DNA of 42,438 nt from a virus: positions 1-42,438 of IMG/VR virus record IMGVR_UViG_3300006916_000096. The stretch is one strand, 5' to 3'. Positions 1,383 to 27,274 of the stretch are shown here, one piece after another (positions within the stretch are counted from its first letter, which is position 1; each line of letters begins with the position of its first letter). The position numbers and the translations under genes are program-made. Under the pieces are notes generated by a model. That model made no database searches. It had not been told where the DNA came from and saw only the letters and a program-made list of their open reading frames with translations.

Positions 1383-4300
1383 ATGAGCGACAACAAACAA
1401 GTATATTATGGGCAAGACGCAATAGCTCAAGTCGAACAAAACATAGGTAGAGAACTAACCTATGCGGAGAAACGAGTAGTTGAGGAAGAGGGGTACGTTG
1501 CTACCCCTTACCTTGACACTAAAGGTATTATTACACAGGGAGTTGGTCAAACTGGGGAATGGATTGAAAAAGGTTTTGAAGCTGCTTATCAACACCACGT
1601 TGACAGAGCTGAAAGACGAATCCCAGGCCTAAGAGATCTACCAGAAGCCTTGCAAGCTGAGCTAATACAAGCTGAGTATAGAGGTGACTTGGGTACTTCT
1701 CCGACTTTTGTACGATTATTAAATGAAGGTAACTACGAAGAAGCGTCTTCTGAGTTCCTTGATAACAATGATTATCGCAGATCACAGGAAGAAGGTACAG
1801 GCGTGCACAAGAGAATGAAAAAAGTCTCTGATGCAGTAGCCTCTTATGCCTCAGAAAAGAGGAGAGCAGTACCTGAGGCTGCACTTCTCACAGACGACTT
1901 TCAAGTCGGAAACTCAGGGTTCTCTTTTCTTGACGGTGATACTATCATTAATCAAGAAACTGGGGAGCGTGTTAGGTTTCCAGAAATAGACTTAGCTGAG
2001 CTTACTAAAGTAACTCGTGAAGAGGGTTACTCAGTAGGTGAAGCTGGTGGTGAGAAGGTAAAACAATATGTTTCTTATCTTGCCAATAAGTATGGATACA
2101 CAAACGTAACAACAACTGATAAAGAAGATAAGTATGGTCGTAAGATTGGGGACCTTAGGGACTCCAATGGAAACTCTTTTACTAACTTCTTGATTAGTGC
2201 AGGTATCGCAAGGCCTACCTTTATAGGTGAATCTACACACATGATGTCTGATGATAGCTATACAAGGTTTTTGTATGGTGAAGGTCTTAGAGCCCTGCGT
2301 AAGGATGAACCACAAACAGATTATGAACTAGCTTCAGAGCTAATTAAAGTAGCAAGCCTTGATCCTACTAATGGTGTACCTCTTGCTAAGATGGATGCAT
2401 TTAATGAGGAAGAGTATGCTTCATTTCCTGATTTGTTTTCGGGTGTAGTCTTAAGAAACAAAGATGCAAACTTTGATAACACATCTAAAACACCATGGTC
2501 TGATGCATGGGGTGCAGGTATTAGTTCTGCAAGTAATGCTTTTAAGCTTACTGGTGCAGCTCTTATGGATACTATGGACCTTGATAATGCTCAAGCCTGG
2601 CTAGAAGGTAGTGTAGCTGAAAGTAAATTTACATTAGCTAGAGCACCTAAGGTTAGACTTAGTTATAAGGATGTAGATTGGACTTCGTTCGATCAGGTTA
2701 CAGAGTTCTTAGGTGCTAATGTTGCAATGTCCTTGCCGTTTATGGGTGTTACTGCAGCTTCGGTACTTGCTGCTCCATTTACATATGGTGGTAGTCTTGC
2801 AGCACCTGTAGCTATGTACTCAGGTATGATACTTGATGAAATGCCAGGCAGAATGGAAGATAAAAGCTATGGTGCAGCCCTTGCTGGTGGTACTCTTGCA
2901 GCTGCATTGGATCGTTTAGGTCTTAAGGCAGCAATGGGTACTTTTACGCCTAGTCATTTTCTTACAGGAGAAGCTAAAGAAAAAGCATTAGATGCTATAT
3001 TGCAAGCTGGTATGGCTGAAACTAGAGATCAAGCTAAACAAGTATTAGCTAACTCTACTAAACGTGAGCTGCTATCTTATGTAGGGGATGCTGGTGATTT
3101 TGTAAAGAACCAAATTACTAAGTCATACATTTTAAAACAGACAGCTAAACGATTGGCTGTTGCTGGTGGTATTGAGGGGTCTACAGAGGTTCTCCAAGAG
3201 CTTACCCAATACACTGCGGCTGTACTTGGATCTGATAAAACTTGGGACTACGCTGAGTTAGAAGAACGTATGGCTAATGCTTTGATTGCTGGTGGTATGA
3301 TTGGTAGTGCCTTCTCTGTACCTGGCGCTGCATTTCAAGCAGGTTCATGGACAGATGCAGGTGTTGCTAAATCTGAGTATGATAAAAGATTTGATGATGC
3401 TACTACAGGGTTTAGGCAAGAAGCGGCTGATGATACTTCTGATGGGACAAAGATAGGCGTAGTGCCTAGTATTACATACAAGTTAAACAATGTATGGCGA
3501 AGTCTTAGAAGTAGAGATGAAGCTGATAGAAGGTCTGGTAGAGACCCTGACAGCAGGGAAAAGTTTGATACAGTAGCAGATGCTGGTGAGACTAGAAGAG
3601 AAGAGCGTACTCGTACACAAAAGCTTAAGGATGCTTTGTCAGATCCTGTAGCGGCATTACGTACCGCTCTAGATACTCGCATTACCACTGATATGCTACA
3701 AAAAAGTAAAGCACTACGATTACTATACGATCAGTTTGGTGGTAGAAAAAATAAAACATATGGTGGTGTAGACTTTCAGAATGATAAGATACTTAACTTT
3801 ACACACTTTGAAAGTTTCTTACGTCCTATTGAGGATGTCCTAAGTAGCTTTAAGGTTAAGGCTAAGTCTTATGGTAAAAGAAAGAAAGCTATATCAGCTT
3901 TAATGTATGACTTTTATTTATCGGAAATAAAACCTATTACTGATGGTAAAGGTAATAAGAAACACATGGGTGTGGATCAGATCTTAGAGGCTATTGATTG
4001 GAATAACTTATCCAAGCAAGAGTTTACAGACAACGCTCAAGCTATCAAAGAGTTTATGGCTGATCTGTATGCAGTAGATGATGCAATGTTTCGTAACATT
4101 ACAGCAGTTCAAGAAGCCACAGGTGAAACTAGAATTGGTAACTTGCAAGACCACATCTTTAGAAGTAAAACATTTTTAAAATCAGCTATAGCTAAGGATA
4201 GAGCTAAGTTCTCTAAGTTGTTACAAGAAGAGTATGACTTAAGCCCTGAGGTAGCCAATGCTGTTACTGATTTAATAGTTGATAATCCAGATGTTAACAC

Positions 4301-5936
4301 ATTAGATGAAGCCTTTGACTTAACTAAGGGTGGTATCTTCCCCAAGACACACAAGAGACGTTCATTAAATATCTCTGATAACCCTAAGTTTTCTAATTAC
4401 TTAGAGCAAGATCTGTTTAGAAACCTTGAGAACCTAATGAAAGGTTCTGCACGTTACATGACTATGAGTAGGTTTATTGGTCGTGACAGTAAGGTTCTTA
4501 TGGAACAGCTTAGACAAGTATATGAGGACCTAAGGGGTGACGCTGAGATCGGGTCAGAAGCTGAGATAGCAGCCCGAGAAGCTATAGAAGATATTGCATC
4601 AGACATTAGAGATTTGGTTAACGCTGATTCTGGTAACTATAAAAGGATTGATAATACAGCTATACGTGGAGCACAAAAGTTCTTAACTGTTACAGCTACA
4701 TTATCTATGTTACCACTAGCAGCTATATCATCTATTGTAGAACTTGCCTTAGTATCTAAAGGTGCATCATTACGTAACTTACATAAGAATGCAGGATCAT
4801 TTGGGATGCTGGCAGGTAAGGAAATGTATGAGTACTTTAGAGAGATGGGTAGGATCACTGGTGTTGCACCTAAGTTTAGTACATTTGACTGGCAGTTAAA
4901 GTCAAGAGCTAAAAGATTAGGTGAGGACTACAGGCACAAGGATATTGATGACCCCCGTAAGATGATGAGAGAAGCAGGCTTCCTGTCGCAAAAGACTGGT
5001 GCTGCTACAGTAGTCGGTGTATCTGAGACTAACCAGTTTACAGAAGCATTGATGAACTCGTTCTTTAAAATTATTGGTTTGCAAGGTATTACTAACCTTA
5101 CACGTACCATGAGGGCAGCTATCTACAATGATTTCTTAATAGAAAATATTGACATCATCCATAGACAAGAAGGTAAACCACCTACTAATGAATCTATGGA
5201 AGCTGAAAAGATGTTAAGGTATATGGGTATACCTATAGATAGAATGCTAGAGCTATCTCGTAGACTGATGGTAGCTCAAGACATGGGTGTAATGCCTGAT
5301 GAAGCTTTGCTTGCTGCTTGGGATAAAGAGTTTAACAATGGTTTGATAAACTTTATTAATGCTGCAGTACCAATGCCAGGTGCTATGAGTAGACCTTTGT
5401 TCTACAGTAACCCGCACTTTGCAATGTTTACGCAGTTCCAAGGTTTTATCTCTGAGTTTACAGCAAATCACTTACCTAATATGTGGGATAGTATTAAGAC
5501 TGCAAATCCAGGCATGAAGTTCTCAGCCTTTGCATCAATCATGTCTATGCTTATGTTAGGTTACGCTTCACAACATCTTAAAGATCTCATCAAGTTTGGT
5601 GAATCATCACCATATCTTTCTGATCAAGAGAAATATTTGAGAGCCTTGTACTCTACAGGGTTGTTAGGTACAACAGAAAGAATATGGAGTAACAATTATG
5701 TCTTGCCTCTCTACAAGGATAGAAGTAGAAATGCAGGAGAAGCAGTTTGGAATCTTGTATCAGGAGAAGCCCCTGTTGCAGGTATCTTTGAAAACATAGT
5801 GGGCTTCGGACAGGGTGTCATGGAGGGTAGTTCCCGTAGTATTATGAAGAGAGGCTTAGGCTTAACTCCGCTAGGTCCCTTTAAACATAGACTGTATGAC
5901 ACATCTGTAGAACAAGGTTGGATAACAGGAGAATAG
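1383..5936 (+). CDS. Giant internal virion protein with lysozyme and SNase-like domains
   Basis: This 1517-residue protein is placed like T7 gp16, an ejected inner-core protein that helps DNA cross the cell envelope. Residues about 20-160 look like a T4-type (GH24) lysozyme: E36, D45 and T51 have exactly the spacing of T4 lysozyme E11, D20 and T26. Residues about 178-280 resemble staphylococcal nuclease: DGDT at 184-187, R198, D203, E206 and DKYGR at 249-253 match its metal-binding and catalytic positions (D21, R35, D40, E43, R87). The remaining 1200 residues contain several hydrophobic stretches (about 440-480, 495-520, 632-655, 1100-1125, 1380-1398) that could insert into membranes. An AGGAGAA site precedes the ATG by about 12 nt. 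The gene ends TAG TAA and the next begins 4 bp later. The virion role is inferred from size and neighbours; the two domains are read from motifs. Confidence 0.8.
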   Translation: MSDNKQVYYGQDAIAQVEQNIGRELTYAEKRVVEEEGYVATPYLDTKGIITQGVGQTGEWIEKGFEAAYQHHVDRAERRIPGLRDLPEALQAELIQAEYRGDLGTSPTFVRLLNEGNYEEASSEFLDNNDYRRSQEEGTGVHKRMKKVSDAVASYASEKRRAVPEAALLTDDFQVGNSGFSFLDGDTIINQETGERVRFPEIDLAELTKVTREEGYSVGEAGGEKVKQYVSYLANKYGYTNVTTTDKEDKYGRKIGDLRDSNGNSFTNFLISAGIARPTFIGESTHMMSDDSYTRFLYGEGLRALRKDEPQTDYELASELIKVASLDPTNGVPLAKMDAFNEEEYASFPDLFSGVVLRNKDANFDNTSKTPWSDAWGAGISSASNAFKLTGAALMDTMDLDNAQAWLEGSVAESKFTLARAPKVRLSYKDVDWTSFDQVTEFLGANVAMSLPFMGVTAASVLAAPFTYGGSLAAPVAMYSGMILDEMPGRMEDKSYGAALAGGTLAAALDRLGLKAAMGTFTPSHFLTGEAKEKALDAILQAGMAETRDQAKQVLANSTKRELLSYVGDAGDFVKNQITKSYILKQTAKRLAVAGGIEGSTEVLQELTQYTAAVLGSDKTWDYAELEERMANALIAGGMIGSAFSVPGAAFQAGSWTDAGVAKSEYDKRFDDATTGFRQEAADDTSDGTKIGVVPSITYKLNNVWRSLRSRDEADRRSGRDPDSREKFDTVADAGETRREERTRTQKLKDALSDPVAALRTALDTRITTDMLQKSKALRLLYDQFGGRKNKTYGGVDFQNDKILNFTHFESFLRPIEDVLSSFKVKAKSYGKRKKAISALMYDFYLSEIKPITDGKGNKKHMGVDQILEAIDWNNLSKQEFTDNAQAIKEFMADLYAVDDAMFRNITAVQEATGETRIGNLQDHIFRSKTFLKSAIAKDRAKFSKLLQEEYDLSPEVANAVTDLIVDNPDVNTLDEAFDLTKGGIFPKTHKRRSLNISDNPKFSNYLEQDLFRNLENLMKGSARYMTMSRFIGRDSKVLMEQLRQVYEDLRGDAEIGSEAEIAAREAIEDIASDIRDLVNADSGNYKRIDNTAIRGAQKFLTVTATLSMLPLAAISSIVELALVSKGASLRNLHKNAGSFGMLAGKEMYEYFREMGRITGVAPKFSTFDWQLKSRAKRLGEDYRHKDIDDPRKMMREAGFLSQKTGAATVVGVSETNQFTEALMNSFFKIIGLQGITNLTRTMRAAIYNDFLIENIDIIHRQEGKPPTNESMEAEKMLRYMGIPIDRMLELSRRLMVAQDMGVMPDEALLAAWDKEFNNGLINFINAAVPMPGAMSRPLFYSNPHFAMFTQFQGFISEFTANHLPNMWDSIKTANPGMKFSAFASIMSMLMLGYASQHLKDLIKFGESSPYLSDQEKYLRALYSTGLLGTTERIWSNNYVLPLYKDRSRNAGEAVWNLVSGEAPVAGIFENIVGFGQGVMEGSSRSIMKRGLGLTPLGPFKHRLYDTSVEQGWITGE

Positions 5937-14390: not shown

Positions 14391-15071
14391 TTAAGGTTCT
14401 TTACCATCCTTCGTTTCTGTTGAGACTCCTTCTTCTTTTTCATTCGTGCTTGCTTCTTGTTTCTTGAACTCTTCTCGTATGTCGTTGGTGATTCCGAGAA
14501 GTTTCTTTCTTGTTTCATTGTTTACTGATTCCTTAGGAATAAATTTAATTGCACCTATCTGTCTGTTCAGGAACACTGGGGTTCCATCAGGATACTTCTC
14601 GGTCAGCACATCTAAGCTCCACTGTACCTTGACTTCTCCTGCAGATAAGCCACCTTTAGTTTCAAACAACTGCAGTATCTCATACGTAAAGTACTCTTCA
14701 CCCAGATCACTTATTAGTTTATTGATATGAGATGAAGAACTCTTGTATGTTTTCCAATTAGATACCTTACGCTCTTTACCTTTGCGATACATATGGAATT
14801 GTTTCTTACCAATGTATCTCTTTGGTTCATCGGGATGACTGCAAGTTATCATATAGATAAACCCGAAGTAATCTTCAGGATCAAAAGGAGGACCACTGTA
14901 TAACCAGTGGCCCAAGTCTTGGTTAAAGGGGACTATTGATTTTGGATAATTATCGCTATAGATATCCTCCAAAAACAGATTATAGTCTCCGTTATAATAC
15001 TCTTTAATATACTCCTCTTCGGTTATCCCTTCATCCTCTAGCTGTTGCTTTACAAAATTAAAATTAGTCAT
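14391..15071 (-). CDS. GIY-YIG-like endonuclease
   Basis: A GIY-YIG-like core is visible: GFIYMIT at residues 70-76 and RYIGKK at 85-90, with a following basic helix (HMYRKGKERK) and a possible metal-binding Glu in ETKGGLSAGE. These are the two signature strands of the GIY-YIG nuclease fold. The ATG overlaps the stop of the upstream exonuclease gene by 4 nt (ATGA), so translation is coupled. In T7 the matching operon position holds the gp3 Holliday-junction endonuclease; this gene may be an unrelated replacement that resolves or debranches DNA, or degrades host DNA. Homing activity is less likely because the gene is an integral operon member, with no sign of an insertion. The C-terminal 40 residues are highly charged and probably disordered. 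Confidence 0.65.
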   Translation of the reverse strand: MTNFNFVKQQLEDEGITEEEYIKEYYNGDYNLFLEDIYSDNYPKSIVPFNQDLGHWLYSGPPFDPEDYFGFIYMITCSHPDEPKRYIGKKQFHMYRKGKERKVSNWKTYKSSSSHINKLISDLGEEYFTYEILQLFETKGGLSAGEVKVQWSLDVLTEKYPDGTPVFLNRQIGAIKFIPKESVNNETRKKLLGITNDIREEFKKQEASTNEKEEGVSTETKDGKEP

Positions 15072-15826
15072 CTTAAGTTACTCTTCCCAAAGACTTCTTC
15101 TAAAGTAAGCTCTTTAATATCGTCAAAAGATCTACGCATGTAGATTAGATTAAAGCATAACGCAAGCTTCTCTTCCCAATCACGAGGGTGTTTATCCCTC
15201 CATGTAGATCTAACTACGTCTAGCATATCATCTTTAGAAACATCTTTGAGAATCTTCTCAGCAGTCTTAGGGCCTACTCCTTTCAAACCTTGGATGTTAT
15301 CTGATGAGTCACCAGTTAGTAGTTGTTTACACAGTAGGTAATGACCATTCTCTTCACTGATTTCATACAGCTTATCTTTATTAAAGTTGTAATGCCAACC
15401 AGGGATCATGTCAATGTCTTTATCTATGTGAGCAATAACCCAAGAGTCTCCAGCTTCTTGTGCTTCGGTTGCCCAGATAGATACTAGGTCATCTGCTTCG
15501 CAACCATCAGCGGGTACACACTCAGTATCCCAACAGTACTTGTATAAGTTATCAAGTCTTTCTTTAATCTTTGGATCTACTTCATACTTGTTACGGTTAG
15601 CCTTGTAGTCTTCCGCTAAGTCGTGCCTAAAGTTACCCTTACCTTTTACAGCAACGTAACCCTTCGAGCTGTTGGTGTCTCTCATCACAGCTTTCAATGC
15701 CAAGTCAAAGGTACTCTGGGCTTGGCTGTCTGTATCTACAGTAGCTGCAATGCGGTACAACATAGAGTCTGCATCAATAAAACATTTATCAAACTCAAAC
15801 TCTTCTTCATTAGTGAACGTCAGCAT
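15068..15826 (-). CDS. 5'-3' exonuclease of the FEN/T7 gp6 family
   Basis: It removes RNA primers and degrades DNA from 5' ends. The 252-residue protein has the acidic metal-binding sets of the family: FIDAD (D18, D20), EADD (E110, D112, D113), DKD (D135, D137) and GDSSDN (D173, D176), followed by a helix-hairpin-helix segment GVGPKTAEKIL beginning near residue 183. The start overlaps the end of the DNA polymerase gene by 17 nt and the stop overlaps the GIY-YIG-like gene by 4 nt. T7 gp6 also lies after DNA polymerase. Together with the primase-helicase and polymerase it forms the replication core. Confidence 0.9.
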   Translation of the reverse strand: MLTFTNEEEFEFDKCFIDADSMLYRIAATVDTDSQAQSTFDLALKAVMRDTNSSKGYVAVKGKGNFRHDLAEDYKANRNKYEVDPKIKERLDNLYKYCWDTECVPADGCEADDLVSIWATEAQEAGDSWVIAHIDKDIDMIPGWHYNFNKDKLYEISEENGHYLLCKQLLTGDSSDNIQGLKGVGPKTAEKILKDVSKDDMLDVVRSTWRDKHPRDWEEKLALCFNLIYMRRSFDDIKELTLEEVFGKSNLR

Positions 15827-16832
15827 AGCTATCTCCTATTTCTCCGTCACCGTCCATACACATAACACCTACAGATTTAGGTGCCTCTCTGAAAGCTTCA
15901 ACACAGATATCCTTTACGGCCTCTGCATCGCTTTCTTTTGCTACGAATACTACTTCATCATGATAGAACAGAGTAGGATAGGCGTCAAGGTTTTTCTCCT
16001 TGATCTTATCATAAGCATATACCAACGCAGCTTTACAGGTAATACCTTCCAGTGTTTGCAACAGGTAGTTCAATGATTGATGCTCTGAACCTACCATGAT
16101 ACGTCTACCATCTGCACCCATAATAAACCCTTGCCCTGTTCTCATAAGAGAGTGTCGGTACTCATCTTCTAAGTTATCCTTCAGACTTTTAAGTCCAGGT
16201 AATGCAGCCTTGAATTTATCATCAGCATCCTTACCAATCTTAGCAGACTTCTTACCTGACACAGCTTCACCTAGCTTAGCGTGACCTGCACCAAACAAGT
16301 AGGCATAGATGAATGTCTTAGCCTGTGGCCTGGAGATCCCAAGGATATCTGCATTACGTTGGTGTACATCCCCGTTGATTACCTCATTGGTAAAGGTATC
16401 ATCATTAATATAATGACACAACCCACGGAACTGATTACCTGCAGAGTCTGCACCGATAACTTTGTAGCCATCTTCAGCAATCAACAGGCTCCGTAGTTCC
16501 TTACCATAGGGGGCATAGACACCTGGAATGTTGACGATTGTCCTGTGCCTACACCTGAAAGATGGAGTGCCGATTGTAAACATAGAGCCATGAAGACGAC
16601 CGTCATTAAACTTCTCTTCATCTTTAACCTCTTCTATCCAACCTTCGACTGTACCCAGTCTGTTACGTAACATGTAGTAGTCACTGATAAGCTTACCCAA
16701 TCTACCCAACGGCTTCAAAGAACTGTCGGTTAGCTTAGGGCTTTGTCTAATCCACTTACCATTAATCTTCTTAACAGTCCAATCATCAGGCTTCCACCCC
16801 CTATCCATAAGGAACTTCTTAACCTCTGCCAT
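15810..16832 (-). CDS. DNA polymerase (family A), C-terminal polymerase part
   Basis: It carries the nucleotidyl-transfer domain of a T7 gp5-like polymerase. Motif A is GADSAGNQFR with catalytic D129; motif B is R168, K172 and Y176 in KTFIYAYLFGAG; motif C is HDE at 291-293. Y176 matches T7 Y526, the residue that lets the enzyme accept dideoxynucleotides and that is common in virulent phages. Q134 stands where T7 has the steric-gate E480. The frame continues upstream without a frameshift for 42 codons to a TAG at 16959-16961 that separates it from the exonuclease part, so the natural protein may be one chain of about 610 residues. The ATG at 16830-16832 has only a weak AGG before it and is not a convincing independent start. 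Its 3' end overlaps the exonuclease gene. Confidence 0.85.
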   Translation of the reverse strand: MAEVKKFLMDRGWKPDDWTVKKINGKWIRQSPKLTDSSLKPLGRLGKLISDYYMLRNRLGTVEGWIEEVKDEEKFNDGRLHGSMFTIGTPSFRCRHRTIVNIPGVYAPYGKELRSLLIAEDGYKVIGADSAGNQFRGLCHYINDDTFTNEVINGDVHQRNADILGISRPQAKTFIYAYLFGAGHAKLGEAVSGKKSAKIGKDADDKFKAALPGLKSLKDNLEDEYRHSLMRTGQGFIMGADGRRIMVGSEHQSLNYLLQTLEGITCKAALVYAYDKIKEKNLDAYPTLFYHDEVVFVAKESDAEAVKDICVEAFREAPKSVGVMCMDGDGEIGDSYADVH

Positions 16833-16958
16833 CTGACCTATGTTAACATTGACTAACTCTACTCGAGTGTATGGTCCAGCTACAATACCATCGGATGCCC
16901 GACAGTCTTCTTCAATCTGGAACCAATCAGTTACCCTTTTATAGTAGTAGCCATCTTT

Positions 16959-16961
16959 CTA
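16959..16961 (-). other. In-frame amber codon inside the DNA polymerase gene
   Basis: The exonuclease and polymerase parts are in the same frame (the two ATGs differ by 810 nt, 270 codons). Only this TAG separates them. The 42 codons after it read as ordinary protein up to the next ATG. CAG to TAG is one simple origin. TAG ends at least five other genes here. Confidence 0.85.
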
Positions 16962-17642
16962 TGTGATCTGATCTACTTCTTTGTTGCCTCTCATAACAGC
17001 AACCTTACCAAGCTGGGGGTTTATCTCTTCCTCGATATGCTCCATCTCTTCAATGATATGTTCATACAAAGCCTCTGCTTTATCCATATCAAATACCCAA
17101 CCCTTCTGAGTAATCTCTGCATTTACTTTTGCAAAGTCATGCTCAAGGTTAAGTGCTTGAAGGAACATAGGGTTCTGTTTGATCAGCACTGATGCTTCTT
17201 TAGATAACCGTTGGTACACCTTGGTGTTTAGGTTAACGTCACGTATACAATACTTAAGCATCTCTTTGCTGTAACAAGTCCAGTCTTCGTGATTACCTTT
17301 CGGATACTCAAAGAACTCACCCCAACCTTTAAGGCCATGCATATGACCCCTGTTGTACTTACATATCTGTGACATCAAGAAGGTATCCCAGAGTTTAGTC
17401 TTACTATCTGGTACCCAACCTGTTAGTTTCTTAAGCACAGGTAAATCAAAGGCTATGATGTTATGACCTGCTAGTATTGTTGCCCCTGACATTAACGATA
17501 GACCTTGATCCAGTGGTGGTAAGCTATCATCATAGTCAGAGAAGGAATGGACATCCCCTGTCTGAGTATCTTCTAATACAAGACACCAGATCTTATCAGG
17601 GAATAGCCCATTAGTTTCTATATCAAATACATACTTGCTCAT
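16959..17642 (-). CDS. DNA polymerase (family A), N-terminal 3'-5' exonuclease part
   Basis: It is the proofreading domain of a T7 gp5-like DNA polymerase. Exo I DIETNGL (D7, E9), Exo II GHNIIAFDLPVL and Exo III YCIRDVNLN are all present, so the exonuclease should be active. The last about 60 residues (LEHDFAKVNAEITQKGWVFD onward) begin the thumb region of the polymerase domain, so the TAG cuts inside a domain rather than at a boundary. That argues against a naturally split two-subunit enzyme. GAGG lies 9 nt before the ATG. A 7-bp hairpin at 17655-17680 separates it from the ribonucleotide reductase gene. Confidence 0.88.
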   Translation of the reverse strand: MSKYVFDIETNGLFPDKIWCLVLEDTQTGDVHSFSDYDDSLPPLDQGLSLMSGATILAGHNIIAFDLPVLKKLTGWVPDSKTKLWDTFLMSQICKYNRGHMHGLKGWGEFFEYPKGNHEDWTCYSKEMLKYCIRDVNLNTKVYQRLSKEASVLIKQNPMFLQALNLEHDFAKVNAEITQKGWVFDMDKAEALYEHIIEEMEHIEEEINPQLGKVAVMRGNKEVDQIT

Positions 17643-22632: not shown

Positions 22633-23790
22633 CTAAGTATACACGTGGCATGGAGCAATAGTAATTGGTAAGCACCACTGCTCTTCTTCGCTATCATTAT
22701 AACACAAGACTAGCTCACCGTCATCACCTACGACTTCGTAGACAAAGAAGTAACCAGACCTACCATGATAGTCATCTTCCATCCAACGTTCGAGTGCATC
22801 TGACTTGCCACCGTTGTTCATAAATCTTCTTAGGCAAGTGTATAGATTATCTGTAAGGTATACTGTTTCACCTTCTTCAATATAATAATCATCAACATCG
22901 TATGGAACATTCAATGCTTCATCTAACTCCGTTAAAGATTGCAAGGCAAGTTGATCTGAAGTTAATACTTCATCATACCTTGGTATCTTTTTATTATCTA
23001 TTAGAGCCTGAAGGGCTCCGGAGTATCTAGCTAACGTTGTGTTACCATTCAGTCCACATGCAGTGTTCACCTCTAATACAGTTGCTTCCTTCTTTCTTTC
23101 ATTCCATATCACATCTACCGCACCGAAGTCTAACCCTAATACATTTACTGCATTAACTGCACTAGATATTACTGAAGGTGATGGCTTAACATCTGAGATT
23201 GTAAATACAAATCCGTTACTGTGGTTTCTGATTTGATAGTTCTCAGGTGTTGTACCATGTGGTACTGCCTTACGTTGTATAAGTATAGGTACATTCTTTA
23301 CTACATGCACACGATACTCGTCACGCTTCTTCATGTATTTAGTATACAAAGGTGCATTGTATACAGCACTGCTTGCAGATACATCTTCCTTGTATCTTAC
23401 AAGATCTAGCCCTTCACCTGAATGACCTTGCATTACATTACGAATAACAACATCATGCCCTTCATCGTACCACTGTCTAGCAATGCTTACATGTGTTGTC
23501 CAGTCAGGTATAGGTATCGGTAGTATTGAATCAGCATTATCTCTGTCGATAGTCTTGAAGAACTCTAGCTTATGAGATGCTAATCGAATCTTATGGGGTT
23601 TGTTAAATACTCTAGCTTGTCTAAATGAAGACAGATCTATAGTTGAGTTACCCCAGTTGATTAAAACTAAATCGTTTTTATCTGTAACAGATGAGCCTTC
23701 AAGTTTCATTCTCTTACAGTTTAAAGAATTAGCTAACAGTTTTGCAGATTCACTTCCAGATTTATAAGGTACTACTAATACTTGGCTCAT
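22633..23790 (-). CDS. ATP-grasp carboxylate-amine ligase
   Basis: ATP-grasp enzymes activate a carboxylate as an acyl phosphate and join it to an amine. The 385-residue protein has a glycine-rich loop QGHSGEGL at 121-128, DEYRVHVV at 157-164, DFGAVDVIW at 221-229 and the magnesium-binding ExN pair (E240, N242) in EVNTACGLNGN. The last 100 residues form an additional acidic domain (YDVDDYYIEEGETVYL) of unknown role. Its ATG overlaps the stop of the amidotransferase gene (ATGA), a sign of coupled synthesis, and its TAG stop lies just before the GGCT gene. Substrate is unknown: peptide, amino acid or a phage or host surface component are all possible. Confidence 0.82.
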   Translation of the reverse strand: MSQVLVVPYKSGSESAKLLANSLNCKRMKLEGSSVTDKNDLVLINWGNSTIDLSSFRQARVFNKPHKIRLASHKLEFFKTIDRDNADSILPIPIPDWTTHVSIARQWYDEGHDVVIRNVMQGHSGEGLDLVRYKEDVSASSAVYNAPLYTKYMKKRDEYRVHVVKNVPILIQRKAVPHGTTPENYQIRNHSNGFVFTISDVKPSPSVISSAVNAVNVLGLDFGAVDVIWNERKKEATVLEVNTACGLNGNTTLARYSGALQALIDNKKIPRYDEVLTSDQLALQSLTELDEALNVPYDVDDYYIEEGETVYLTDNLYTCLRRFMNNGGKSDALERWMEDDYHGRSGYFFVYEVVGDDGELVLCYNDSEEEQWCLPITIAPCHVYT

Positions 23791-24941
23791 TGTATTGTCT
23801 CCATACAGAAGTCATCGTCTGTTAAAAGATAAACATCTTTTTGTGATTGAAGTATCTCTTCTACTTCATCCTTCTTATCTAAGTTGTTTACATCCTCAGC
23901 TATTATTTCTTGCAACCAAGGTGTAGTTAAGATAAGTTCGTAAGTGCTTCCAGTCTTTACCATACTCTGAACTATACCTGTGTAGTACCCAGCTACTGCA
24001 GGTACAGGAGCTTGGAAGCATTTGATCTCCAAGTTCTGACCATCGGTAGTGATACCACCCATCGGCGTGGTTTGTTTGGAACCTGTCGGTATGCCTTCAG
24101 AATAAAATTCTACTTCATCACCAGTCTTTAAACCATAGTCCTTTAGTTTATTTAACGGATGACCTGGTGTCTTTTTTACATCGTTAGACCATTTGTTTTG
24201 ATTCCAATTGTTGTAGTACACAGTCGTAGGTTTAACATACTTAGGTTGTATCTTTACCTTTCTGAAAGATGGTTTAAGACCTGTAGTATCTTCAACGTTA
24301 AAGGTAGCAAGCATACCTACAGGTAACTCTTCAATGGTATAGTCTATATCATTACGAGTTAGGATAGCTTCAAGCATATACCTTTCTGATGCATAATAAA
24401 ATGTATCTCTGGTCTTATGCTTAGCAATCCACATAGGTCTCTCTTGATTACGAACAATATAAAACTCCATCTTATTATCGTTGTACCAAGTCAGAGCAAA
24501 CGCACCTTTCAATACACTAATAACTTCTTCAGGGTTATCAGTCAGACCCATAGCATATGCAATGTTCTCACTGTCTACCTTAAAGTCTTTGTAATCTGGA
24601 AGTGTAGTCTGATCACCAAGTGTACCGTTGTGAGCTAGCGTTACATTACCGTAAGTAAACGGGTGAGCATTGATGTCATTCACTGCACCCTGAGTAGCAT
24701 ATCTGTTGTGACCTAGGAGAAAGTCACCGTATATATTACCAGCAATAGCAGAACCCTGCTTAAGTTGTAGGTAATCTGGAGCACTAACAGCACGTTTGTA
24801 TGTTAAAACCTCGTTGTTTGCATCGTTGGTTGCTACACCTGTACTATGAGAACCACGAAGAGTATCTACAAATAGTAATTGTTGAAACACTTTTGCATCT
24901 TGGAAGTTGATATCGCCTATCACGCCAACTAATCCGCACAT
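23787..24941 (-). CDS. Class II glutamine amidotransferase (Ntn hydrolase)
   Basis: It releases ammonia from glutamine for amide formation. The catalytic Cys is C2 (MCGLVGVIGD), exposed after removal of Met1. The other family marks are present: RGSHSTG at 29-35, GHNRYATQG at 77-85, AHPF at 92-95 and HNG at 104-106, where the Asn and Gly form the oxyanion hole. The glutaminase domain covers about the first 220 residues; the remaining 160 have a basic linker and a small beta domain and show no synthase domain such as those of GlmS or PurF. The acceptor enzyme is therefore probably a separate ligase in this cassette. It overlaps the amidoligase gene upstream by 13 nt and the ATP-grasp gene by 4 nt. 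Confidence 0.88.
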   Translation of the reverse strand: MCGLVGVIGDINFQDAKVFQQLLFVDTLRGSHSTGVATNDANNEVLTYKRAVSAPDYLQLKQGSAIAGNIYGDFLLGHNRYATQGAVNDINAHPFTYGNVTLAHNGTLGDQTTLPDYKDFKVDSENIAYAMGLTDNPEEVISVLKGAFALTWYNDNKMEFYIVRNQERPMWIAKHKTRDTFYYASERYMLEAILTRNDIDYTIEELPVGMLATFNVEDTTGLKPSFRKVKIQPKYVKPTTVYYNNWNQNKWSNDVKKTPGHPLNKLKDYGLKTGDEVEFYSEGIPTGSKQTTPMGGITTDGQNLEIKCFQAPVPAVAGYYTGIVQSMVKTGSTYELILTTPWLQEIIAEDVNNLDKKDEVEEILQSQKDVYLLTDDDFCMETIQ

Positions 24942-25834
24942 AATTTATCCTTTATCTTTGACAATTGTCTTGAGCCTATATTGTGATGCATGATGTTGGT
25001 TTGTACCTCTCTCATGCGTGATTGAAATAGAAGTTCTTCTGCTACCCACACACCCTCGAACAGTTTCATATTAGACAGTGACACATGTTCTTGGTTATCG
25101 TTTACAAGATCACCGAATACATACGTTAGCATAGCATTCGCACCGCTTACGCTAAGTATCTTAGGGATTCTGCTTATAGATTTGTTAGGATTTTGAACAA
25201 ACTTCTTGAGTGCTAGTATATGATTAATCCAATTGGTTAGCACATAGCAATTGGAGGTGCCCCGATGGCCTCTGAACTCGATAGCCCCACGTTCCCTAAG
25301 GGAAAGTAAGTTTATCGCAGAGTACTTAGTCCATGATGGTTCCTGCAAAGAGTCAGGACCAGCTTCAAATATACGTAGTAGGTTTTGTATTTGATTCTGC
25401 CCACGATATAAAGACAGAGAGTATATACTTTCTTCTCTCTCTTGTCCACATATACTGAACAGATACGGTTCTACCATAGCATACAAAGTTACAAGGTCAC
25501 ACACAGAAGACCATAGCATATCTCTAGCATCCATGTGTACATGCACAGACGTACGGTAACCAAACGTACCTTGATTAGTCAAAGCTAATGCTAGCTTCTC
25601 TACTCTTTTCTGTGCACCAGATCCACCTATAGGTCCATCGAATACATACTCTACTCCGTTGTTACGAAGGGATCCATCGGGTATGCATCGCCATCCAGGT
25701 ATTCTTGGAGGGTCCATAAGGTTTTCTACTTCTACCTCAACGCCTATCCTGGTGCCTGATATCAGGTTACCAAGACGGTTTGTCTCTGGTTCTTGAGGTC
25801 TAAGATTGTATCGAGATTGAATTGTGGAATCCAT
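24929..25834 (-). CDS. Putative amidoligase of the glutamine-synthetase-like fold
   Basis: The 301-residue protein matches the pattern of the putative amidoligase family (Pfam PF12224 as I recall): GVEVEVE with E33, E35 and E37; DGSLRNNGVEYVF at 53-65 with E62; GYRTSVHVHMD with H98 and H100; and a later GAIEFRGHRG segment. In glutamine-synthetase-like ligases such Glu and His residues bind the metals and ATP, and the Arg binds phosphate. I choose the ATG at 25834 over a TTG at 25843 because GAGGA would be too close to the TTG. It overlaps the unknown gene upstream by 35 nt and the amidotransferase downstream by 13 nt. It probably forms an amide or peptide-like bond on an unknown substrate. 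Confidence 0.78.
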   Translation of the reverse strand: MDSTIQSRYNLRPQEPETNRLGNLISGTRIGVEVEVENLMDPPRIPGWRCIPDGSLRNNGVEYVFDGPIGGSGAQKRVEKLALALTNQGTFGYRTSVHVHMDARDMLWSSVCDLVTLYAMVEPYLFSICGQEREESIYSLSLYRGQNQIQNLLRIFEAGPDSLQEPSWTKYSAINLLSLRERGAIEFRGHRGTSNCYVLTNWINHILALKKFVQNPNKSISRIPKILSVSGANAMLTYVFGDLVNDNQEHVSLSNMKLFEGVWVAEELLFQSRMREVQTNIMHHNIGSRQLSKIKDKLCAD

Positions 25835-26486
25835 TTGGGACAATCCTCATTATCATTGGAATCAAGTGATCAACTTTGCAGGAGACTTCTATCCTGCCAT
25901 CTTTAATCACACCTATTGGTCTACCCTTGTACGACAGCACAGGGTGTTCGACATCATACATAGAAGAGAATGCAAAGTGTGGAGAGATAGCTCGTGAAAT
26001 CATTTCACCACTCACCACGGTTTCAAAGGCTTCTTCAAATGGACTGTAGGTTGGATTGAATAACTCTGATATCTCATTGTTACCTATATCTAACCTGTAA
26101 TTAATGTTGTCGTTTACTACGAGATGCCTGATAATTCTTTTATCAAGAATCTTATGCTCAACATTACTCCATCTAAAACCTTTCTTCCATTGTCTTCTAG
26201 CTACACGTTCTACATACATAGTATGTTTGTTACTATTAATGAAACCTAGTTTAGGCCAGTCAAAGTTAATATCATTACTTGGATCGTCACTGTATAGTAA
26301 CACACGATCACCGTTAACTTTATCTACACTAATAGCTAGAGCACCATCATCAGTTTCTATATTGGATACTCTACCAACATACCAGCCATCATCATCCCTG
26401 CTTTTAAACTGTAGGTATGTATCTGCGTAAGTTGCATAGAAGTCTCTTGGACTTATGTCCGACAGTATTAGTTCACCGTTTCTCAT
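25800..26486 (-). CDS. Unknown protein of the amidoligase cassette, 228 aa
   Basis: No family is recognised. The first half is beta-rich and acidic (YLQFKSRDDDGWYVGRV), resembling a small SH3-like or tudor-like barrel in strand pattern only; the second half is mixed. There are no cysteine pairs, no signal peptide and no membrane segment. Its ATG overlaps the stop of the ligase-type-2 gene (ATGA), and its 3' end overlaps the next ligase gene. Such wedging between two ligases suggests that it is a partner, a scaffold or a substrate of the pathway. That is inference from context. Confidence 0.7.
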   Translation of the reverse strand: MRNGELILSDISPRDFYATYADTYLQFKSRDDDGWYVGRVSNIETDDGALAISVDKVNGDRVLLYSDDPSNDINFDWPKLGFINSNKHTMYVERVARRQWKKGFRWSNVEHKILDKRIIRHLVVNDNINYRLDIGNNEISELFNPTYSPFEEAFETVVSGEMISRAISPHFAFSSMYDVEHPVLSYKGRPIGVIKDGRIEVSCKVDHLIPMIMRIVPNGFHNSISIQS

Positions 26487-27274
26487 GTCATCTCCAAATT
26501 CAACTCCTGCATTATAGCTTTAGCATCATCAGTTTTACTACGATTAATAATCTTACTGATAGTTTTACCATCAGCAACTTCAAGCATCTGAGGTAGCATG
26601 TGTAGGTTTTGAGTAGCCCACATGGTTTTATCATACACCCATGACATTAACTCATTAGAGTTTAGCCAGAAGTTACTAAGGGTTCTGTACTCTACACCGT
26701 ATTGCTTGTGGCGCATTGAGCCAGCCTTACCATAAAGCTTCCGTCTTAGTTTGTCGGTGTCAATTAAAAGAGATGGCAACCCAATAACGAAGTCCATCAT
26801 CTTTACAAGGTCCTCATTGGTACCAATACTTGGGTTGTCATAGCCTACATGTATGTGCCCACCAGCAGTCCTAAGGGTATTACCTTCAGACTTTGGGGGT
26901 GGTACTGCCTTACCAGACCAAGCGTTTATATCGGGACTACAGCCAAACTCAAGGGCGTTAGGTCCATACTCTCTGAGTTGCTCTTGGGTGTAGGTGTAGC
27001 TTGGTATAATAATAGGCTGTAAGTTGTTACCTTCTAAGATGTTTCGTAGGTCAGCCATCACTGAGTCCATGTTGTGTATGAACTCCATCTTGGATTTAGC
27101 AGGATTGATATTAAACTCTGCAAGAACATTGTCCTCCTGTACACCACCGTCTTTGACAGGACGAGGACAAACTTTATTGCCACCGACATAACCGATAGCA
27201 GATGTAACAGAGCCAGTGGAATCCGCAACGAATACCTCAGGGTCTGCACCGATAGTTACATTTTCTAGACGCAT
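26483..27274 (-). CDS. phiEco32-like COOH-NH2 ligase type 2
   Basis: The 263-residue protein begins with IGADPEVFV (D11, E13), a hallmark of the phage phiEco32-like carboxylate-amine ligase type 2 family of the glutamine-synthetase fold. Further likely active-site marks are AEFNINP with E53 and N55, AGGHIHVGYD with H140 and H142, and a later VEYRTLSNFW with an Arg for phosphate binding. GAGG lies 7 nt before the ATG. It is a different type from the ligase at 24929-25834, so the cassette has two glutamine-synthetase-like ligases plus an ATP-grasp enzyme. The substrate is unknown; published proposals for the family are peptide or cell-envelope modification. Confidence 0.82.
   Translation of the reverse strand: MRLENVTIGADPEVFVADSTGSVTSAIGYVGGNKVCPRPVKDGGVQEDNVLAEFNINPAKSKMEFIHNMDSVMADLRNILEGNNLQPIIIPSYTYTQEQLREYGPNALEFGCSPDINAWSGKAVPPPKSEGNTLRTAGGHIHVGYDNPSIGTNEDLVKMMDFVIGLPSLLIDTDKLRRKLYGKAGSMRHKQYGVEYRTLSNFWLNSNELMSWVYDKTMWATQNLHMLPQMLEVADGKTISKIINRSKTDDAKAIMQELNLEMT

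Follow-up and report, generated by a model that had tools for sequence, protein, structure and literature searches.

A staphylococcal-nuclease-like domain at the head of a probable phage ejection protein, joined in one clade by a lysozyme

The DNA analysed here, referred to as the window, is a viral stretch of 42,438 nucleotides (IMG/VR record IMGVR_UViG_3300006916_000096). Its first complete ORF encodes a protein of 1517 amino acids that carries at its N-terminus a T4-type lysozyme domain and a domain resembling staphylococcal nuclease (SNase), followed by two strongly hydrophobic segments and a conserved C-terminal region (Table 1); residues 1200-1417 match a PHROG of virion structural proteins. 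The 3' part of a gp15-like gene lies upstream, and a large gene directly follows. An ORF of about 1160-1480 amino acids occupies the latter position in the other loci listed, which suggests that a fourth large ejection protein may exist in this group. Genes for a T7-type RNA polymerase, a family A DNA polymerase, a terminase, a portal and head proteins are present as well, so that the phage is otherwise an ordinary short-tailed one. Some further genes, all on the minus strand, deserve mention. The DNA polymerase A is found as two ORFs (15810-17642), one 3'-5' exonuclease-like and the other a polymerase. A protein encoded at 14391-15071, between the helicase and 5'-3' exonuclease genes, matches a PHROG named NAD synthetase together with homing-endonuclease PHROGs. 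Adjoining genes at 23787-27274, for a class II glutamine amidotransferase domain, a putative amidoligase and a COOH.NH2 ligase, may together serve to modify peptides or the cell wall.

Table 1. Location of the gp16-like gene, its domains and its neighbours in the window
Feature	Position	Strand	Basis
Upstream gp15-like gene, 3' part (772 aa in near-identical contig L001)	2..1357	+	
gp16-like internal virion (probable ejection) protein, 1517 aa	1383..5936	+	ORF; PHROG match; C-terminal homologues
Lysozyme domain, T4-type (GH24-like), residues ~25-158	1455..1856	+	Pfam, PDB profile, structure comparison
Glu36 (= T4 lysozyme Glu11)	1488..1490	+	invariant in aligned relatives
Asp45 (= T4 lysozyme Asp20)	1515..1517	+	invariant in aligned relatives
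Thr51 (= T4 lysozyme Thr26)	1533..1535	+	invariant in aligned relatives
SNase-like domain, residues ~172-305	1896..2297	+	Pfam, PDB profile, Foldseek, conservation
D184-G-D186-T187 (= SNase D19-G-D21-T22)	1932..1943	+	D184 and D186 in 77/77; T187 is T or S
Arg198 (= SNase Arg35)	1974..1976	+	77/77
Asp203 (= SNase Asp40)	1989..1991	+	invariant in the window's clade; D in 48/77 of the family
Glu206 (= SNase Glu43)	1998..2000	+	77/77
Arg253 (= SNase Arg87)	2139..2141	+	77/77
First strongly hydrophobic segment, residues 442-467, candidate membrane segment	2706..2783	+	
Second strongly hydrophobic segment, residues 1103-1130, candidate membrane segment	4689..4772	+	
Conserved C-terminal region, residues 1130-1420, unbiased search seed	4770..5642	+	
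Large downstream gene, 1266 aa	5940..9740	+	similarly large ORF follows in other listed members

An earlier sequence-only reading had placed in this protein an E-D-T triad of the T4 lysozyme type (E36, D45 and T51, with spacing 9 and 6) and the SNase motifs D184-G-D-T187, R198, D203, E206 and D249-K-Y-G-R253, and all of these residues were located where it had put them. The lysozyme domain is recognized weakly by Pfam (Phage_lysozyme on the 310-residue N-terminus, residues 34-129, E = 1.5e-4, 22.5 bits against a cut-off of 22.3). A lysozyme profile matched P22-type and other phage lysozymes among the PDB sequences, and in VIA-align T4 lysozyme was paired with residues 24-155 with a Z of about 9 and an rmsd of 3-4 Å over about 120 residues. 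The E-x8-D-x5-T triad is invariant in 10 aligned sequences. The same module, about 39-48% identical, is found at the start or the end of ejection-type proteins from Vibrio and Alteromonas phages.

The Pfam SNase match (PF00565) on the 310-residue N-terminus is weak, spans residues 197-284 and falls just below the cut-off (E = 7.7e-4, 20.3 bits against 21), and since a PDB search with the N-terminal 439 residues as a single sequence gave no matches, profiles were needed. A profile of the domain, built on nine relatives that share the architecture, was compared with all PDB sequences; nearly all of its matches were to staphylococcal nuclease (best E 3.8e-4), with D186, R198, E206 and R253 aligned to D21, R35, E43 and R87 of that enzyme. 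An AlphaFold2 model built from nine sequences reached a moderate mean pLDDT of 68; the SNase core strands were near 80-85 and loops 205-222 and 280-292 below 50. Foldseek comparison of this model placed staphylococcal nuclease first (E 3.1e-4, probability 1.00, target TM 0.48) and T4 lysozyme next, the best PDB fold match being therefore the OB-fold nuclease that had been anticipated. The VIA-align rows span the lysozyme part only and neither strengthen nor weaken the SNase assignment. Pfam, PDB profiles, Foldseek and residue conservation thus uphold the presence of both domains in one protein.

The conservation of the SNase domain is centred on its active site. All active-site residues, the catalytic ones included, are invariant in the nine sequences with the same architecture, which are 41-82% identical to the window protein over the domain. 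When the homologue from Roseobacter phage CRP-7 was added, 21 of 142 columns were invariant, and the chance that five residues named beforehand should all lie within them is 4.5e-5 if columns are exchangeable. In an alignment of 77 distinct SNase domains with a median pairwise identity of 27%, invariance was restricted to six of 169 columns, D184, D186, R198, E206, R253 and G263, the first five of which correspond to SNase D19, D21, R35, E43 and R87. With columns again taken as exchangeable, the probability that five of six pre-named residues should be among these six columns is near 3e-8. Relatives devoid of R198, E206 or R253, which would have spoken against a nuclease, were not found among the 77. 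The column of D203, equivalent to the calcium ligand Asp40, is variable (D in 48 members, S in 16, E in 10, N in 2 and T in 1); hence 29 of the 77 relatives have S, E, N or T at this position while the other active-site residues stay constant, and the metal site of these relatives may differ from that of SNase. The earlier statement that every catalytic and calcium position of SNase is matched holds for D184, D186, R198, E206, R253 and D203 and needs one qualification, the position of Thr41 being Leu204 in the window protein. This is no contradiction, because Thr41 ligates calcium through its backbone. At an E of 0.01, Pfam SNase detects only seven of 56 family members (best 2.4e-6), and this escape of most members may explain why the nuclease of the family went unnoticed.

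The distribution of both domains was analyzed by scanning IMG/VR twice with the C-terminal region alone, so as to avoid selecting for the SNase domain. The scans gave the best 80 of 147 and the best 80 of 193 matches, to which three host-genome contigs and CRP-7 were added. In the resulting set, 79 distinct proteins have an ORF that is closed at its 5' end, and in 77 of them this ORF includes the SNase domain. The remaining two ORFs are interrupted: in L084 the domain lies in frame just upstream of an in-frame stop that precedes the remainder of the ejection protein, and L126 is a fragment of 439 residues close to the end of a contig. The stop that parts the domain from the rest in L084 (about 1431-1869), and also in L197, is either a real variant or a sequencing error. 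Compared with 863 ORFs of at least 140 amino acids in these loci, the SNase profile matched family proteins and the separated L084/L197 piece only, and it gave no match in the outside ejection proteins of PaP3, tf, VPp1, JB8, VBP47, VPMCC5, H4/4 and L016. The lysozyme, on the other hand, is restricted to 12 distinct proteins that form one clade (support 98/97), that of the window. Divergence of the SNase domain goes together with that of the C-terminal region (Mantel r 0.85, 0 of 999 permutations). The tree was rooted at its midpoint, and the position of CRP-7 in it is uncertain because of a very long branch. Since the SNase domain is found throughout, the lysozyme in a single clade, and the two divergences are correlated, the former has descended with the protein and the latter was added once. 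Therefore, the SNase domain is an old, near-universal, ancestral N-terminal domain of this gp16-like protein family; the lysozyme joined it later, on one occasion, on its N-terminal side in the window's clade. The scans comprise the best 80 matches each, and more distant relatives may be without SNase, as is PaP3 orf19.

The lysozyme-SNase pairing, which had been put at the core of the sequence-only reading, was consequently dropped as the novelty. It was also considered that the SNase domain might be an optional insert, as suggested by L016, which has the lysozyme and no SNase. Outside the lysozyme, however, L016 shares only about 20% identity with the window protein, and it therefore counts as a distinct ejection protein that carries this lysozyme module. 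Members other than CRP-7, a cultured representative of the SNase-headed family, are all metagenomic, and the group consists mostly of marine short-tailed phages. Of the three host-genome contigs in which relatives occur, one is labelled Pelagibacter, one Bacteroidetes and one Dehalococcoidia, labels that may result from mis-binning. A tblastn search with the SNase domain among phage records yielded little beyond CRP-7.

The upstream gp15-like protein complements this picture. No hydrolase domain was found in that of the window, nor by Pfam in those of nine members of its clade, in which the protein is shorter (about 640-880 residues versus mostly 960-1300). In relatives without the fusion, an N-terminal hydrolase was found in the gp15-like protein as Phage_lysozyme2 in 9 of 24, Phage_lysozyme in 5 and SLT in 4, with overlaps possible. 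In CRP-7 a pesticin/lysozyme-like domain is located on gp35 and the SNase on gp34. That gp15- and gp16-like proteins can exchange their hydrolases is already known from K1E gp35 (PMC8954989). A division of roles emerges, in which the wall hydrolase is swapped or moved between neighbouring ejection proteins and the nuclease stays.

The assignment of the protein to the ejected virion proteins, made earlier from the sequence, is in agreement with gene order, hydrophobic segments and annotated virion homologues. In the near-identical contig L001 three consecutive genes encode 193, 772 and 1517 amino acids, an order and sizes that match T7 gp14-gp15-gp16 (196, 747 and 1318 amino acids; PMC8954989), the protein being the third of three in the late structural region. 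Its C-terminal region is homologous to CRP-7 gp34 and to PaP3 orf19, the latter annotated as a virion structural protein, as is the related gp51 of phage tf. As regards direct sequence homology to T7 gp16, the matches listed by tblastn were from Pseudomonas phages and CRP-7. The first hydrophobic segment comes after the SNase domain in all 77 members, at a median of 159 residues, and the N-terminal domain of T7 gp16 has been placed in the periplasm (PMC8954989). Synteny, size, topology with its hydrophobic segments and homology to annotated virion proteins indicate that the protein is probably ejected.

The explanation that we favour, and hold to be somewhat probable, is that of a gp16-like ejection protein with an active SNase on the periplasmic side acting on non-self nucleic acid, and with a once-added lysozyme. 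The protein of this T7/LUZ24-type phage would be packed in the head, would be ejected ahead of the genome and would span the host envelope, its N-terminal head, which precedes the first hydrophobic segment, taking the position of the periplasmic domain of T7 gp16. The T4-type lysozyme part of this head would open the peptidoglycan, and the SNase part would probably be a calcium-dependent nuclease, the activity of which is suggested by the conservation pattern of its residues. The lysozyme was gained once, by the clade whose gp15-like protein has no recognizable hydrolase. The compartment is proposed by analogy with the topology of T7 gp16 and from the general properties of SNase. Against this explanation count the replacement of D203 in 29 of 77 members, the moderate quality of the structural model with its low-confidence loops, and the danger that a nuclease would pose to the DNA packaged with it, which demands some form of control. 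More speculatively, the SNase would target nucleic acid other than the phage's own, either leaked host DNA or RNA or the DNA of a competing phage. The enzyme would work in the periplasm of seawater hosts, where calcium is plentiful; the ejection tunnel would shield the phage genome from it, and in the cytoplasm there would be too little calcium for it to act afterwards. A broader proposal is tentative and rather doubtful, namely that an obligatory, virion-delivered, calcium-gated nuclease heads the ejection-channel protein in a whole, mostly marine, podovirus group, that compartments separate self from non-self DNA, and that the virion arms the host envelope against, for instance, a competitor genome.

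SNase needs calcium, which is scarce in the cytoplasm, and this speaks against an explanation in which the active enzyme would reach that compartment and destroy the host chromosome or RNA early, the released nucleotides feeding replication. Such an attack would fit with the full retention of the catalytic residues, with the ribonucleotide reductase encoded by the phage and with the proposal of polyvalent proteins as early injected effectors (PMC5512222). However, no protection of the phage DNA is evident, and the domain precedes the first hydrophobic segment, where the topology of T7 gp16 makes the N-terminal domain periplasmic (PMC8954989); on these grounds cytoplasmic attack is judged unlikely. 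The domain could also be a catalytically idle SNase or OB fold whose part in the ejection channel would be to bind DNA or a partner protein. SNase folds without activity occur in other proteins, and the variability of the calcium ligand D203 would agree with this idea, but the strictly conserved residues are those of the active site plus one glycine, which a mere scaffold would not need, so that an idle fold appears less likely still.

A nuclease acting before ejection, on extracellular DNA, in head assembly or in genome processing, would make the ejection incidental. The calcium of seawater would permit activity outside the cell, and CRP-7 and the one host-genome contig labelled Pelagibacter are marine; inside the head, however, the enzyme would meet its own genome, and display on the exterior is not expected, which leaves this explanation very improbable. 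The probability that both domains are chance resemblances is almost nil: the window's own SNase match just under the Pfam cut-off would allow it, but the profile, fold and conservation tests agree in contradicting it, and the lysozyme and SNase resemblances are confirmed as more than chance.

Ejection proteins belong to the most poorly understood components of short-tailed phages. A constant nuclease head in which, over great divergence, only the active-site residues and one glycine are strictly conserved implies that genome entry requires an enzymatic step, of which no description was found in the literature searched. The resulting question, namely how an active nuclease could be packaged alongside the viral DNA and what it would cut, is testable, the domain being carried by the cultured phage CRP-7. 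The literature search, which left most subscription papers outside, found no podovirus ejection protein described as carrying SNase; the main text of the CRP-7 paper does not mention a nuclease. What seems new here is the occurrence of SNase in ejection proteins at the scale of a family, mostly invisible to Pfam.

The sequence-only reading knew of no described virion protein with this pairing of domains; for the idea of such a pairing, precedents exist. The polyvalent proteins of phages include a lysozyme joined to a DdrB-like ParB DNase (Iyer et al. 2017, PMC5512222), so that a hydrolase plus a nuclease in one injected protein is a known kind. Like these, the window protein, which is probably injected, is multi-domain and combines a peptidoglycan hydrolase with a putative nucleic-acid-cutting domain, but no SNase is named in PMC5512222. 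MPTase (zincin-like) or ParB/ART domains were not reported in the window protein by Pfam at an E of 1, a search that may miss divergent versions. In the BtI1 tail-hub protein, a homologue of Bacillus phage 0305phi8-36 gp147, an N-terminal SNase-related domain replaces a transglycosylase (PMC2147016). What this hub has in common with the window protein is that a virion protein begins with an SNase-related domain; it differs in being a tail hub of a myovirus-like element with a Gram-positive host, and a single case, whose function was called obscure (PMC2147016). The virion RNA polymerase of Vibrio Schitoviridae (VBP47) and the internal virion protein of Alteromonas phage vB_AspP-H4/4 have the same N-terminal lysozyme module, with an identity of about 43%, and neither has the SNase domain. 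PHROG 37474, matched by residues 7-256, had been considered as a ready-made two-domain relative and was rejected, VBP47, the related one tested, having the lysozyme only.

Nearer relatives differ in their heads. PaP3 orf19 and tf gp51, from phages of the LUZ24 type, have a homologous C-terminal region and the same late-gene position, but neither matches the SNase or the lysozyme profile, and orf19 is shorter (1056 amino acids). CRP-7 gp34 (MK613349) has an N-terminal SNase with all active-site residues, a homologous C-terminus and the same neighbourhood; unlike the window protein it bears no lysozyme, and it is annotated as hypothetical. With T7 gp16 the protein shares its place as the third of three consecutive ejection genes, a matching size and an N-terminal enzyme head before the hydrophobic segments. 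T7, however, has one hydrolase, an N-terminal SLT transglycosylase, and no nuclease, whereas in the window's family the constant head is the SNase, to which a T4-type lysozyme was added in one clade.
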